Assembly: GCA_016866355.1 (NCBI GenBank)
Contig: VGMN01000010.1
Coordinates: 1-55,882, forward strand
DNA length: 55,882 bases
Reading direction: 5' to 3'
Origin: Bacteroidota bacterium
GTDB taxonomy: Bacteria > Bacteroidota > Bacteroidia > Chitinophagales > Chitinophagaceae
In this document: in pieces, positions 6,034-43,520 of the stretch
Layout: each line of letters opens with the position of its first letter
Numbering within the stretch: the first letter of the stretch is position 1
Position numbers and translations under genes: made by a program
The notes under the pieces: generated by a model
Databases searched by the model: none
What the model saw: only the letters and a program-made list of their open reading frames with translations
What the model was told of the DNA's origin: nothing

Positions 6034-6390
6034 CTAAGACAAAAGCACAGATGCGGGTATTTGTAACTTCTCATGAAAAAGCTTAGCCAAATCTAATGTT
6101 AATGGTTTTTTCTTGTTTAATATAGCAGAAACATATCCCTTACTCCCCACTTCCTCAACAAGGTCTTTATTTCGCAAACCTTGCTCTCGCATTTTTTCCT
6201 TTATGACTTTAATCGGATCAGGTTTGGGTACTTGATAATGAATATCTTCATAATGCTTAATAAGTAATAGAACCAATTGAATCTTTTCACCTAATGGAGT
6301 TGTAGGCTTGACTCCTTTATCTAACTGGACTGCTACCCAGCTCAAGTAACTCAAATATTGCCTTTTTGTTTTTATTAGTTGTGGAGACAT
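6034..6390 (-). CDS. higA: HigA-type antitoxin with HTH domain
   Basis: 118 residues. The C-terminal part (about 60-118) is a Cro/C1-type helix-turn-helix with the pattern LRNKDLVEEVGSKGYVSAIL followed by LTLDLAKLFHEKLQIP, typical of HigA antitoxins. It begins 3 bp after the stop of the upstream toxin gene, giving the toxin-first order that marks higBA modules. HigA neutralises HigB by binding it, and the complex normally represses the shared promoter. The perfect inverted repeat upstream of higB is the likely target. Confidence 0.88.
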   Translation of the reverse strand: MSPQLIKTKRQYLSYLSWVAVQLDKGVKPTTPLGEKIQLVLLLIKHYEDIHYQVPKPDPIKVIKEKMREQGLRNKDLVEEVGSKGYVSAILNKKKPLTLDLAKLFHEKLQIPASVLLS

Positions 6391-6393
6391 CTT

Positions 6394-6702
6394 TTATCTT
6401 TTATACTCAACCAGTTTGACATTTATTTTATTATACTCACTATGTGTACCAAACCACTTTATTTGAACAACTCGGTAATCAAACACTACGCGCACTACCA
6501 GCCGATAGTGATTACCGCAAATATTGAAAACCACGCGATTGTCTCCTACCAAGCTTGCACTACCATACACTTGCTTAAGTTCATTAAAGTCTTTGAACGA
6601 AGCATTTAGTATTTCATAATACCACTCATATAAAGAATTTGCAGCACGGGGATACTTGGCTGCAAATTGCAAAATGGTATTTCGGGCAATAACATTAGAC
6701 AT
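6394..6702 (-). CDS. higB: HigB-type mRNA interferase toxin
   Basis: 102 residues of the RelE-superfamily HigB group. The pattern WYYEILNASFKDFNELKQVYG, then NRVVFNICGNHYRLVVRV and the ending QIKWFGTHSEYNKI is characteristic. HigB toxins cut mRNA on the ribosome. It is the first gene of the pair, with higA starting 3 bp later. The ATG lies close to a weak -7-like box (TAATTTTA, 6705-6712), which would leave almost no leader. Chromosomal higBA pairs are common; nothing shows whether this one is active. Confidence 0.9.
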   Translation of the reverse strand: MSNVIARNTILQFAAKYPRAANSLYEWYYEILNASFKDFNELKQVYGSASLVGDNRVVFNICGNHYRLVVRVVFDYRVVQIKWFGTHSEYNKINVKLVEYKR

Positions 6703-6713
6703 TATAAAATTAC

Positions 6714-6738
6714 AAAAGTTTACTAATAGTAAACTTTT
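6714..6738. promoter_or_regulatory. Perfect inverted repeat, likely HigBA operator
   Basis: AAAAGTTTAC, 5-nt spacer TAATA, GTAAACTTTT: a perfect 10-bp inverted repeat. It lies immediately upstream of a weak -7-like box of higB (minus strand), in the interval where the -33 region would be. Position and symmetry fit autorepression by HigA or the HigBA complex. Binding itself is inferred. Confidence 0.65.
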
Positions 6739-6927
6739 TAATTTCTTATTTTTTACTCGCGTTTGAAACGAATTAATCTGATTTGAGCTTTGTGAACAAG
6801 TGAAAAGGATTGATTTACTGATGATTATACCCTAATTGTGGGTTTAAAAACAGTATTCGGCTTTGATTAATAAATTGTCATTTTGTCTCCTATATCAATT
6901 TTTTTTAAATTGATGTAAAATTTTGTA

Positions 6928-7932
6928 ATGAAAAGCAAGCTTGCTTTTATACATGGTGTAATGATGATGCCTATGGTGCTCCTGGCACAGCCCCGCCGCA
7001 TCAATAACGATTTAACCGTAGCCGAAATTCAGAATATCAAACTGGAGTATATTCAGCAGATAAGAACTGTAAAAAAAGATACCTCCTATTTTGCGATCAT
7101 TACTATTACTGATGTTAACCCTGCTACTGTCAATACAATAAACCCGTTGGGAAATAAAAGAGAAATTAACCTCTTTACGGAGAAGGATTTCATCACATTT
7201 AAAAGCAGTATTGATAAAGCAATCACTACCATAGATACAAAAGATAAAAAAGGATTTAGTGGCGGGCGATACAATGAGTATACTATTGAAACACAATTTG
7301 ATGCTACAAATAACCGCTTTCGCGCTAAGTTAACACGTGACCCAATTGGTATTTACGAGGGAAAATTTACTTACCTCTACTTAGAGGACCTTTGTAAGAT
7401 TTCATCTTGGCTATCCACTATTGATATGGAAAAGCCTACACTTTTACCAATGCGCAATCCAGTTATACAAACAGATTTGAATAGTGAAGCTGCCAAAGCC
7501 CCACCAATTGCCAAACAATATCAGCAAGAGGTAAAAGCTGGAAGTAGCGGAATCAATAAAGAGCAACTCGTTATGATTGCTGGGAAATGGTATAACCAGG
7601 TACTTAGAAATGATTATAAAAATGGGGGCTATGAGAGTGGGTCTACCGGGGACTATGAGCCCGTACGGATAAATGAAGATGGTACTTGGTTATATTATGG
7701 TAAAAGAGGCAAGTTATCCATCACACCATTTACAACAGCCGATGCACTAAAATGGAAGATGACCAAAGAAATTCCAAAGTGGAAACTCACGTTTCATGAT
7801 TTTTCAAATGGGGACGGGGAAGGTTATTTTACAGTTGACCCCGCAGGTAATCCAAAACATGTGGTAATTAAGTTCAAGATTTATGAGCCTCGTGAAGGAT
7901 ATTGTACCTGGACTCAATATCGCAGGAGCTAG
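6928..7932 (+). CDS. Secreted protein of unknown function
   Basis: 334 residues that I do not recognise. The N-terminus has a basic start and a hydrophobic stretch ending near LLAQP, a probable signal peptide cleaved around residue 21. The first mature half is a mixed alpha/beta region rich in Thr and Ile. The C-terminal part (about 208-334) begins IAGKWYNQVL and contains NEDGTWLYYGKRG, which recalls lipocalin-like or beta-barrel repeats, but the match is too weak to name a family. It has a 225-bp upstream region and overlaps the end of the nitrilase-family gene on the other strand by 4 bp. Confidence 0.75.
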   Translation: MKSKLAFIHGVMMMPMVLLAQPRRINNDLTVAEIQNIKLEYIQQIRTVKKDTSYFAIITITDVNPATVNTINPLGNKREINLFTEKDFITFKSSIDKAITTIDTKDKKGFSGGRYNEYTIETQFDATNNRFRAKLTRDPIGIYEGKFTYLYLEDLCKISSWLSTIDMEKPTLLPMRNPVIQTDLNSEAAKAPPIAKQYQQEVKAGSSGINKEQLVMIAGKWYNQVLRNDYKNGGYESGSTGDYEPVRINEDGTWLYYGKRGKLSITPFTTADALKWKMTKEIPKWKLTFHDFSNGDGEGYFTVDPAGNPKHVVIKFKIYEPREGYCTWTQYRRS

Positions 7933-40374: not shown

Positions 40375-41802
40375 TTACGCTTTCTTTTTTTGCTCTCGTG
40401 TAGTAAGTGTGTTGTTGGGCGTTCCTTCTATTTTTCCTCTGCACAATGCAGATCCACAACTACACACAAAGGGTTCCGTGGTTGCATCCAGAAACCGGGT
40501 ATAGTCAAGTGTTAGCTCTTCATCTGCAGCAACCGTTCGCGTGGTAACCACGTTAAGTCCATCAAAGACCGTATTAGCATCACAACTATGGTTTTGTGGA
40601 GCCCAGTCCGCTGGATTATTGTCCCATAAAACATAAACCTCTTCGCTAATTGGATAAGCATAGCGGCGAAAAAGTAATTTCTCCTCTTGGCTCCAATTTT
40701 TATCTACTTCACCCTTTGTGATCAGGCGTTGCGCGCGGCCTTCTCCAACAAACACAATTTGTCCTGATTCTAGTTTTTGTTTTGCATAAATTCCATACCC
40801 CGCAATTGAATTGCCTTTCATATAAAAAGTGCGCTGCCTTCTGGCATGTCGCGCCATTCCTTCTGAAATAATATGTTGTAAGAACCCCGATTGTCCAACG
40901 GGATCATATTTCAAGATAAAATCTGCGGAGCCTTCGTATCCATCCGTATAAAAAACCGAACAGGTAAGGTTCATCTCTAAAAAAAATATATTGCCCTCGT
41001 TATCTACCCGGAAGTCAAGCCTTCCATAACCGTGACCGCCCGCAGATTTGAATATTTTTTCACTGGCTCTTCGTAGTTTACCCTCTAATACTAAGTCGGT
41101 ACACGGAATATTAGCGCTTGGGTGTAGCTCAGATGTTTTTAAAGAATATGTTTTGAAAGATTTTCCCGAAGGAAAAATATATTCGACCGGTTTATAGCTG
41201 GTGCAGCTCTTTCCGTCTTTGTTGGCCGCAACCAACACCGTAAACTCACGACCCCCTATATATTGCTCTACTAACACGTTGCCATAAAGCGGTAACAATT
41301 CTTTACACTTTTTTTTCAATGCTTCTTTTGTGTTAACCAGCGATTCTTCATTCACCCCAAGACTGTCGCCTGCGTGTGCTGGTTTAATAAATAACGGAAA
41401 CTGTATTTCTGCAGAAATCGTTTGCAGGTCTTCTTCCTTTTCAACCAATACATAGGCGGGGGTGGGGACATCCTCGCAATAGGCAACATACTTTAATAAT
41501 GCTTTTGGTAAATCAAAAGTTACTGAAGTTGGGCCGGTGAAAGGAAGGTTTAATGATTCAAGAGAATGGATCACATCAACTCCGGGGACTTCCCATTCGG
41601 GATATCCCTCACAAAGATTTACAAATATGTCATACCCCTTTTTTGACAGGTCTTTGAGTTGCTTATAAGTGGTAAGCTTATTTAAAAACACGTGATCTAC
41701 CTGGCAATCGGGAAGCAATAAAGAAAGGTTTCTGGGCGGATCATAATATTTATAATCTACCGACGTGGTTGAATAATCAGGTTGAAGTACGCAAACCTTC
41801 AC
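40375..41802 (-). CDS. ATP-grasp ligase fused to a SET-domain methyltransferase
   Basis: 475 residues in two modules. Residues 1-315 are a D-Ala-D-Ala-ligase-like ATP-grasp domain: FIKPAHAGDSLGV (138-150), VEQYIGGREFTVLV (178-191) and RLDFRVDNEGNIFFLEMN (261-278), which carries the metal ligands. Residues about 325-460 are a SET domain with GYGIYAKQKLESG, NHSC (404-407), ELTLDY and a post-SET Cys cluster (Cys447, Cys449, Cys454). SET domains methylate lysines with S-adenosylmethionine. The start overlaps the end of the preceding ligase gene by 4 bp. An enzyme that both ligates and methylates, or ties the two to one substrate, is inferred. It converges with mnmG. Confidence 0.88.
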   Translation of the reverse strand: MKVCVLQPDYSTTSVDYKYYDPPRNLSLLLPDCQVDHVFLNKLTTYKQLKDLSKKGYDIFVNLCEGYPEWEVPGVDVIHSLESLNLPFTGPTSVTFDLPKALLKYVAYCEDVPTPAYVLVEKEEDLQTISAEIQFPLFIKPAHAGDSLGVNEESLVNTKEALKKKCKELLPLYGNVLVEQYIGGREFTVLVAANKDGKSCTSYKPVEYIFPSGKSFKTYSLKTSELHPSANIPCTDLVLEGKLRRASEKIFKSAGGHGYGRLDFRVDNEGNIFFLEMNLTCSVFYTDGYEGSADFILKYDPVGQSGFLQHIISEGMARHARRQRTFYMKGNSIAGYGIYAKQKLESGQIVFVGEGRAQRLITKGEVDKNWSQEEKLLFRRYAYPISEEVYVLWDNNPADWAPQNHSCDANTVFDGLNVVTTRTVAADEELTLDYTRFLDATTEPFVCSCGSALCRGKIEGTPNNTLTTREQKKKA

Positions 41803-42941
41803 AGTTCTGCTTTTGTTTTTATTTTGGTGGGTTGCGGTTGTTTTTGTGCATGACGGCGAACCGCGTCTTGTAAAATCTCAAAAATTACCTGTGTATAGGA
41901 GACGTTGGACGCCTTTAATATGGCACCGATGGAAGTATAGTCTTCGTCTTCGCTTAATCCACATTGCGCATTTGCCTCAAGCACATAAAGTTTTCCCGTT
42001 TGTGCATCTTGCCTTATATCAATTCTGGTATATCCCTTTCCGCCTAACGCGGTGTATGCTTTTTTGCTCAGCATGGTCAATCTTCTTCGGAGCGATTCTG
42101 GTGCCGGAGCATATTCATAAAAATTTTCATTACCCGGCATGGGGGATTCCGCTTCGTAGATTTCCCACAAGCGGTCAAAGGATAAAAATCGTTCAGTATC
42201 GGGAAGGGATGGGTGAAAATGTCTTTCAACCGGGGTATAGACCTTACAGTTTGCAGGGTCATCGGATGATCCGGTGATAAATGTGGTGAACTCGGGTCCC
42301 GTAATAAATCTTTCTACAAACAAACCATCAGCTTGAAGATTCCACCCCCTATATCCTTTCGCAAGTTGATCTAATCTGTTTTTTAATTCTTGCTCTGTGT
42401 GAACTACATTTTTTACAGACACACCCATGCTACCGCCAGATACCGCTGGTTTTAATAATAGGGGTGTTCCGACACGCTGACAAATTCCGCGAATGGTGCC
42501 GGGCTTCCCGGAAATAATTCGCCAGGGCGAATTGGGTACGCCCGCTTTATCAAACACCTTCTTCATGGGTATTTTAGAGGTGGTGATTGTATAAAAATGC
42601 CGATCGGCTCCTGTATAAATCAGCTTGTGTATTTCTAGCTCATCAATAACAGAAACCCCGGGGGTATCATTCACCTCGTCACCATCACAAAGGTTTAACA
42701 CTAATGCGTTTTTGACATGTGCCGTTGTGCTGATTTTCTCTATTGTTTTTTTAAAACCCTGCATGGTTATCGGAACCCACTCCCACTCAATGTTTAGTTC
42801 AGCAAAAACGCGGGTATATTCTTGAATACTATGTGTAAAATCATAATAGTGGGCCAAATTGGGGTCGTCTGTTTCAAGGTGTGGTGCTAAAACCCAGACC
42901 TTATATTGTGCAGCCAGATTTTTTATTGCTGTTGGGTTCAT
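41799..42941 (-). CDS. ATP-grasp ligase, D-Ala-D-Ala-ligase-like
   Basis: 380 residues. After a pre-ATP-grasp Rossmann-like part (1-120) come the ATP-grasp motifs LLLKPAVSGGSMGV (161-174, Lys164), FVERFITGPEFTTFI (208-222, Glu210) and TRIDIRQDAQTGKLYVLEAN (305-324, Asp308, Glu322, Asn324). The set of ATP- and Mg-binding residues looks complete, so it should be active as a carboxylate-amine ligase. The following NAQCGLSEDEDYTS differs from the PGLT motif of true D-Ala-D-Ala ligases, and the length is greater, so a different substrate is likely. It overlaps the SET gene before it and the fusion gene after it by 4 bp each. Confidence 0.88.
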   Translation of the reverse strand: MNPTAIKNLAAQYKVWVLAPHLETDDPNLAHYYDFTHSIQEYTRVFAELNIEWEWVPITMQGFKKTIEKISTTAHVKNALVLNLCDGDEVNDTPGVSVIDELEIHKLIYTGADRHFYTITTSKIPMKKVFDKAGVPNSPWRIISGKPGTIRGICQRVGTPLLLKPAVSGGSMGVSVKNVVHTEQELKNRLDQLAKGYRGWNLQADGLFVERFITGPEFTTFITGSSDDPANCKVYTPVERHFHPSLPDTERFLSFDRLWEIYEAESPMPGNENFYEYAPAPESLRRRLTMLSKKAYTALGGKGYTRIDIRQDAQTGKLYVLEANAQCGLSEDEDYTSIGAILKASNVSYTQVIFEILQDAVRRHAQKQPQPTKIKTKAEL

Positions 42942-43432
42942 CCCTCTAAGTTTCTTTTACCCACTATGTAGTGATTTAGTTGATACGCGCTAGCCTGTTG
43001 TGCGCTTAGGTGTTTGGCGCCGCGAATCATACCCAAACATTGTTGGCTACGACAGTTACAAACAAACGGTTGGCTCATGTCCCACTCAGAGGAAGGATAA
43101 AAAAAAGAAAACTCCTCTTCGCATGCAATATCCCTAAGCGCAATCACGGTTAAATGGGTGGTATCAAAAAAACAGTTAGGATTACAGCTGTGGTTGATGT
43201 ATTGTAAATACTCCGGGTTTAACAATATGTGTTGGTTGTCGCCCAGCTGCACGGTTAAATAAGAAGGGGTGGTGTGCACCTCTCCGGCCGCAAAAGAAGA
43301 AATCACTTCACCGGCCGCAAATTGGCGTCCAGCAAAAAAAGATTTTTGTCCGGAGGCGATGTCCTCGCGCACCTCGCCAATACTTGTTGAAACTACAAGT
43401 CGGATGGTTTGAATAGCAGGGGCCGTTTGCAC
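42938..43432 (-). CDS. Stand-alone SET-domain protein
   Basis: 164 residues, first gene of the operon, starting at a GTG. The SET core has GRQFAAGEVI, INHSCNPNC (79-87), EEEFSFFYP and a post-SET cluster FVCNCRSQQCLG (Cys125, Cys127, Cys132). It aligns by eye with the SET module of the fusion protein two genes downstream. SET proteins are lysine methyltransferases; the substrate may be a protein or a small molecule handled by the ligases. The normal catalytic Tyr of the ELTLDY-type motif is FSFFYP here, so activity should be tested. Confidence 0.86.
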   Translation of the reverse strand: MQTAPAIQTIRLVVSTSIGEVREDIASGQKSFFAGRQFAAGEVISSFAAGEVHTTPSYLTVQLGDNQHILLNPEYLQYINHSCNPNCFFDTTHLTVIALRDIACEEEFSFFYPSSEWDMSQPFVCNCRSQQCLGMIRGAKHLSAQQASAYQLNHYIVGKRNLEG

Positions 43433-43491: not shown

Positions 43492-43520
43492 TAATGTGAA
43501 TAAGTAAGGAATAAGGATGG

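Follow-up and report, generated by a model that had tools for sequence, protein, structure and literature searches.

A conserved SET and ATP-grasp operon of Bacteroidota that may make an exported, methylated, amide-linked metabolite

We analyzed contig VGMN01000010.1 of a Chitinophagaceae genome (Bacteroidota bacterium, assembly GCA_016866355.1), and found that three consecutive minus-strand genes, encoding a free SET protein, a free ATP-grasp ligase and an ATP-grasp-SET fusion, represent a conserved system. With a probability of about 0.5, we propose that its product is an exported small metabolite, methylated and joined by amide bonds, in the form of a peptide or an amino-acid conjugate. The whole stretch analyzed, hereafter referred to as the window, comprises 55,882 nucleotides and is contig C10 of a 36-contig, 1.76 Mb genome.

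Results

The three genes are conserved as an operon

The first gene, P0001 (43432-42938, minus strand, GTG start), encodes a compact free SET protein of 164 amino acids (aa) with matches to Pfam and to the SET-domain enzyme BurB. It is followed on the same strand by P0002 (42941-41799, ATG start), a free ATP-grasp ligase of 380 aa from the D-Ala-D-Ala ligase (Ddl) superfamily with a changed acceptor site, and by P0003 (41802-40375, GTG start), the 475-aa ATP-grasp-SET fusion. Neighbouring genes overlap by 4 bp; the genes, order and overlaps described in the initial annotation were confirmed. Matches to Pfam SET (E 1.4e-9 and 5.5e-8, for P0001 and P0003) and to Dala_Dala_lig_C (E 3.7e-16 and 6.2e-22, for the two ligases) all exceeded the gathering scores.

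A scan of 84,980 species genomes yielded 338 stretches with a relative of the fusion, the best 80 of which constitute the record loci (loci are numbered L, genomes G). Cultured carriers include Sediminibacterium soli (L099), which also has an ABC_membrane_3 gene, and Terrimonas ginsenosidimutans (L116). The complete set of SET, ligase and fusion was present in 67 of these 80 loci, with median gene gaps of 4 and 17 bp. In seven of the 13 incomplete loci (L062, L068, L072, L098, L100, L109 and L126), the contig starts right next to the first gene found, and in L100 the end of the SET gene is still visible at the contig edge. A separate SET was absent from L111, L114, L115, L129 and L133. In L093, a SET-ATP-grasp fusion of 556 aa (6261-7931) joins the first two genes in a domain order opposite to that of P0003. 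When 20 larger neighbourhoods were compared, all three genes were found in 16, the exceptions being L035, with a SET remnant only, L044, which stops before the fusion, and L041 and L043, which have no free SET. An mnmG-like gene was present in 11 of the 20 neighbourhoods, so part of the conservation of gene order reflects plain descent; the flanks otherwise vary.

The distribution of the genes was compared across 117 genomes, i.e., that of the window and 116 relatives. The closest of these relatives with a named record are metagenome-assembled genomes (MAGs) labelled Bacteroidetes, Chitinophagaceae and, in two cases, Sphingomonadales. The fusion was found in 46 of the 117 genomes, counting G028, where the end of a contig leaves just 56 residues of it, and two fusions in pieces (G021 and G036), and the free ligase was found in the identical 46, with zero discordant genomes. 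The free SET was present in 43 of these 46, as well as in three genomes without the other two genes. The fusion genomes without it are G003, in which the SET carries an internal deletion, G010, whose contig ends within the ligase, and G109. Across a phylum-wide sample of 395 genomes, 17 had the fusion (E <1e-130), 16 the SET and 15 both (Fisher p 4e-24). The Fisher tests all gave values <1e-23, which are indicative only because the genomes are related. In one genome, G322, the fusion lies on one contig and the SET/ligase pair on another.

Taken together, the co-occurrence of the genes, the conservation of the operon and the two SET/ATP-grasp fusions of opposite order lend good support to the earlier proposal that a single pathway includes both ligation and methylation. 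Of the conditions that the initial annotation had set for its refutation, unrelated partners and lost active sites did not overturn it as a whole, the exceptions being G003, G108 and L161.

The two ligases are deeply diverged members of the Ddl branch

In an alignment of 20 fusions, R261, D263, E276 and N278 of the fused ligase were invariant, as were R306, D308, E322 and N324 in an alignment of 21 free ligases. We take both sets of positions to be equivalent to the ATP/Mg-binding residues of Ddl. A Cys located three residues past the Asn of E-x-N was also invariant in all 20 fused and 21 free rows, and the core residues of the fusion were retained down to approximately 33% identity (13 rows; Chlorobiaceae, f44 and f74). 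An L-E-(I/V/M)-N pattern was present in 78 of 80 fusions, with the remaining two carrying L-E-L-N. Amongst the free-ligase open reading frames (ORFs), 19 of 79 deviate from a strict R-x-D-x-R pattern; the segment was seen for ten of these and reads R-L-D-I-R in nine and R-V-D-V-R in one, while two of the other nine are truncated or split. At L056, the free ligase is divided between two ORFs. Given the invariant ATP/Mg residues, together with the NHSC and post-SET Cys motifs described below, the catalytic motifs of both ligases and both SET domains are intact, as first annotated.

The acceptor side differs from that of Ddl. In place of the PG-x-T type of Ddl, the two ligases have E-x-N-A-Q-C-G and E-x-N-x-T-C-S-V-F-Y, in agreement with the earlier remark that neither has the PGLT motif. 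The best scores against the NCBIfam Ddl models (83.4 and 91.7 bits) were far under the cut-offs of 243 and 245.65, and the cell encodes its own Ddl elsewhere (contig C2, E 2.7e-48). For a predicted model of P0003, with a mean predicted local distance difference test (pLDDT) score of 85.0, Ddl structures were the best fold match. The Pfam and PDB matches of both ligases fall in the Ddl branch rather than that of RimK, no match to which was found in the Pfam search of the operon proteins. Thus, the operon ligases are alike to Ddl in their ATP/Mg-binding residues and, for the fusion model, in fold, but differ from it in their replaced acceptor motif, their separate clades and their pairing with, or fusion to, a SET domain.

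In a 29-row tree, the free (8 rows) and fused (10 rows) ligases each formed a clade of their own, with supports of 100/100 and 100/96 and a deep split between them; the two join at 100/96 apart from both the cell's Ddl and a second Bacteroidota ligase family; the Ddl and Vibrio rows are long, making their placement and the deepest part of the tree unsure. Fused and free ligases share approximately 28-32% identity (profile-profile E 1.3e-34 at 28%). These sister clades are old paralogues and not one enzyme present twice, and to call the operon a split and a fused copy of the same enzyme pair, as was done initially, is therefore too strong. A recent duplication of one SET/ligase pair was likewise ruled out by this tree, with the above reservation as to its deepest part.

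Other Ddl-like ATP-grasp genes were noted in passing. A second family occurs in other Bacteroidota (L149-L157), where, at the seven loci for which this segment was seen, EVNPNPDL stands instead of the acceptor motif of Ddl; the L155 member adjoins another ORF of similar size. On a Thioflavicoccus plasmid (L173, 1488-6969), genes of the diaminobutyrate/diaminopropionate type lie beside Ddl-like ATP-grasp and KamA-family radical SAM genes, in what looks like another small dipeptide pathway. On a Vibrio gigantis plasmid (L174, 4767-5921), a Ddl-like ATP-grasp gene stands immediately behind the type VI secretion genes tssF, tssG and tssH.

Among solved structures, the free SET protein best matches a free-methionine methyltransferase

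The usual annotation of a SET domain is protein lysine methyltransferase. The NHSC motif is located at residues 80-83 of P0001 and 404-407 of P0003, and the post-SET cysteines at 125/127/132 and 447/449/454, respectively. All 67 free SETs and all 80 fusions contained both NHxC and F-x-C-x-C...C, and the catalytic Tyr was invariant in alignments of free SETs (A3, 18 rows) and fusions (A1, 20 rows). Hence the hallmarks of histone-type SET enzymes, i.e., NHxC, the catalytic Tyr and the post-SET Cys cluster, are present in free and fused domains.

Amongst solved structures, the best match of the free SET was BurB, both in a single-sequence search (E 1e-9, compared with 2.4e-7 for the runner-up) and in a PDB profile search using A3 (6.3e-18, compared with 6.7e-9). 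Similarly, Foldseek searches with a predicted P0001 model (pLDDT 92.7) returned BurB chains at ranks 1-3. BurB is a SET-domain enzyme that converts free methionine to S-methylmethionine (PMC12542666). This S-methyltransferase of the dimethylsulfoniopropionate/malleicyprol pathway (PDB 9l4t and 9l4v) is similar in length to P0001, with which it shares T/Q/H residues ahead of the motif, the Tyr, S-T-E behind it and CxC...C. The two proteins are approximately 23% identical, and a HMMER alignment places LHSC of BurB against NHSC of P0001. They also differ in their partners: those named for BurB in the parts of that paper covered are BurI, BurD and BurE, with no ATP-grasp ligase (PMC12542666), whereas P0001 is paired with ATP-grasp ligases. 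On the basis of sequence and model comparisons, a small-molecule substrate is favoured for P0001. The description of the methylation as lysine-type has no specific backing, because among solved structures the free SET is closest to BurB and the fused SET is near-tied between BurB and histone enzymes.

A third SET protein, of 129 aa, is encoded in the same genome away from the operon (contig C7; L001, 1447-1836), flanked by MutS-type-like and MgtE-type-like genes.

Exporter-like genes adjoin the operon in many relatives

A membrane protein of approximately 290-300 aa follows the fusion on the same strand in 33 of the 80 loci, as judged by BLAST similarity to the protein of L049; in L039 it sits between the fusion and the SET. 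All four of the proteins tested (L039, L040, L047 and L049) passed the cut-off for PF13748, ABC_membrane_3, and Pfam shows no ATPase domain of their own. In six Chlorobiaceae loci (L162-L165, L170 and L171), a SET and a fusion occur together with a complete ABC transporter and another, small SET (Pfam on L163), and FMO protein was found in four of four tested genomes of the Chlorobiaceae genus carrying them. Apart from the membrane protein, the clusters listed included no recurring family of co-oriented immediate neighbours.

No convincing short ORF that might encode a precursor peptide was found within 700 bp upstream or 600 bp downstream of the 67 complete operons; the initial annotation had likewise seen none. 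The short ORFs recurring most often, in as many as 16 loci, are positioned opposite the mnmG-like gene, and upstream short-ORF clusters, which reach at most eight loci, were not examined further.

Several other contexts were considered and rejected. PADLOC matched none of the three operon proteins (defence system), as did PHROGs (phage origin), and 36 pattern matches to viral contigs included no relative. As to carriage by plasmids, the free SET had no match in the plasmid collection, and the fusion matched 409 plasmid records, none covering >80% of the query; among the matches listed (30), most were Ddl/Van or ATP-grasp genes, along with one SET protein. No annotated SET gene was seen in three plasmid neighbourhoods inspected, for which the gene table is incomplete.

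An element conserved in part of the family precedes the operon

The 11-mer TTATTCACATT is located at 43493-43503 on the minus strand, approximately 71 nt upstream of the start codon of the SET gene; the 1.76 Mb genome contains no other copy. Among the 67 loci with a free SET, 37 have a TTATNCACA site 60-120 nt upstream, and 30 of these carry the exact 11-mer, of which there are 32 copies in total across the 1.15 Mb of the 80 loci. The element is missing at L039, L040, L045 and L048 and present at L042. In six Chlorobiaceae operons, a forward copy of TTATTCACATT (up to one mismatch) was not found in the 250 nt upstream, with one reverse near-match seen in L163. By eye, 10 of the 30 loci without the element (L059, L064, L070, L074, L092, L096, L099, L106, L108 and L128) share another upstream motif, approximately AAATGTG(G/A)A(G/C)TATTAA. 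TTATTCACATT resembles a DnaA box extended by ATT, and the bases that follow are also conserved. A replication origin was nevertheless rejected, as the cumulative GC skew of the window has its minimum at approximately 26-28 kb and not at 43.5 kb, and conservation extends beyond the box.

Discussion

We infer the following pathway. With S-adenosylmethionine as the donor, the free SET would methylate a free amino acid, or an amine or thioether resembling one. Acting in succession, the two ATP-grasp ligases would activate a carboxylate as an acyl-phosphate and couple it to an amine, most simply through one or two amide ligations. The fused SET domain would methylate the ligated intermediate, and in many relatives the ABC-type membrane protein would export the product. 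ATP-grasp ligases linked in operons are said often to "catalyze successive" steps (PMC4431377). The two kinds of SET/ligase fusion, i.e., the P0003 family and that of L093, suggest that both chemistries act on the same intermediate. The initial annotation left the product as a methylated peptide or metabolite, or a modified host protein; of these, we favour the metabolite, given the exporter-like neighbours in relatives and the lack of a nearby precursor, and regard the modified protein as its main rival.

A number of observations weigh against this proposal. The free SET is not always needed, since in a close relative of the window (G003; L035, 6083-6385) it is internally deleted while the ligase and fusion, approximately 86% identical to those of the window, are intact. 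In G062 the free SET is located elsewhere in the genome, G109 has the fusion and ligase with no SET match, G108 has two SETs and no ligases, and the fusions of L160 and L161 stand without a free SET, a free ligase or a transporter of the Chlorobiaceae type; nor was a free ligase seen in the six Chlorobiaceae loci. An ABC_membrane_3 match is absent from the window's own genome, and no transporter was seen beside its operon or in 47 of the 80 loci. As for the SET domains, BurB superposes loosely on the P0001 model (template modelling score, TM, 0.63-0.65; root-mean-square deviation, rmsd, 8-10 A), and histone enzymes follow in the Foldseek results (E from 4.7e-7), some at TM 0.56-0.60 and rmsd 3-5 A. 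BurB ranks first but is near-tied with histone methyltransferases for both the fused SET profile (5.9e-14 and 3.8e-13) and the small Chlorobiaceae SET (2.1e-10 and 1e-9). Finally, P0001 could still be a lysine enzyme, as it retains the Asn of NHSC that BurB does not have.

The last points bear on protein modification, in which the ATP-grasp enzymes would add amino acids to a cellular protein, in the manner of tubulin tyrosine ligase (TTL)-like or RimK-like enzymes, and the SET domains would methylate its lysines. We consider this unlikely, although it is the alternative to be taken most seriously. SET is classically a protein lysine methyltransferase domain, P0001 and P0003 retain NHSC, the Tyr and the post-SET Cys, and the precursor search near the operon was negative. 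Moreover, human TTLL12 combines SET-like and TTL ATP-grasp-like domains (PMC3520985); like P0003 it does so in one chain, but the domain order is reversed and its ATP-grasp domain belongs to the TTL family. In L160 (the f44 genome), the fusion lies near FGase, a MATCAP peptidase and a glutathione-synthetase-like ATP-grasp gene on the same strand. However, MATCAP was found in one of 12 genomes tested, which was not that of the window, and a linked MATCAP/FGase pathway, seen in L160 only, was rejected. Exporter-like genes within the operon of many relatives also argue against a protein target, as does the match of both ligases to the Ddl branch and not to RimK. Ddl joins free amino acids.

An origin in ribosomally synthesized and post-translationally modified peptides (RiPPs) appears improbable. 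On this view a gene elsewhere in the genome would encode a ribosomal peptide, to be cross-linked and methylated by the enzymes and exported by the ABC protein. In its favour, graspetide loci pair ATP-grasp ligases with methyltransferases and ABC transporters (PMC8939145), a combination like that of the relatives with exporter-like genes. Graspetide loci differ in the branch of their ATP-grasp enzymes and in the type of their methyltransferase. In addition, the median gene gaps are just 4 and 17 bp, there was no RimK match in Pfam, and no small ORF in the flanks of the 67 complete operons was judged to be a precursor, within the limits of the search given above.

We place slightly less weight still on a role in the cell envelope, whereby the ligases would make a variant peptidoglycan or envelope peptide with a methylated amino group. 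The Ddl-like fold would fit such a role, as would the membrane protein that certain relatives have in their operons, but the genome has a separate Ddl, the Ddl acceptor motif is missing and the NCBIfam Ddl scores fall far short of the cut-offs. Accidental adjacency of genes that work separately would accord with their separation in G322 and G062, the broken SET of G003 and the part played by plain descent in gene order, but is made highly improbable by the identical genome distribution of ligase and fusion, the two fusions and the retention of the gene set amid different flanks.

Among the papers listed in text searches of 5.39 million open-access papers, we saw none describing an ATP-grasp-SET fusion or operon in bacteria, and no prior characterization of the family; subscription papers lay outside the search, and an earlier mention is possible. 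The one paper listed for ATP-grasp together with SET domain concerns TTLL12. In the part of an article on bacterial SET proteins that was covered, the words "ligase" and "fusion" were not found (PMC3980110). Each part of the operon is of a known kind, and it is their combination that appears new. Related neighbourhoods may be mentioned in the 2009 work of Iyer et al. on amidoligases.

The operon ties SET domains genetically, and twice by fusion, to ligases of the branch that joins free amino acids, so that a role of SET enzymes in the methylation of small molecules by bacteria can be tested directly. The carriers, Bacteroidota of freshwater and soil as well as green sulfur bacteria, would then make a metabolite that is probably exported. 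The operon may also inform how SET and peptide-ligase domains merged, as in TTLL12. More tentatively than for the operon itself, we suggest an undescribed class of exported metabolites, made without the ribosome or a nonribosomal peptide synthetase by Ddl-like ATP-grasp ligases and two to three SET enzymes that would have free amino acids or small peptides as substrates, and carried by Chitinophagaceae, Chlorobiaceae, MAGs labelled Cyclobacteriaceae and other Bacteroidota. If such a class exists, SET domains would be general in bacterial small-molecule chemistry, with BurB as one case.

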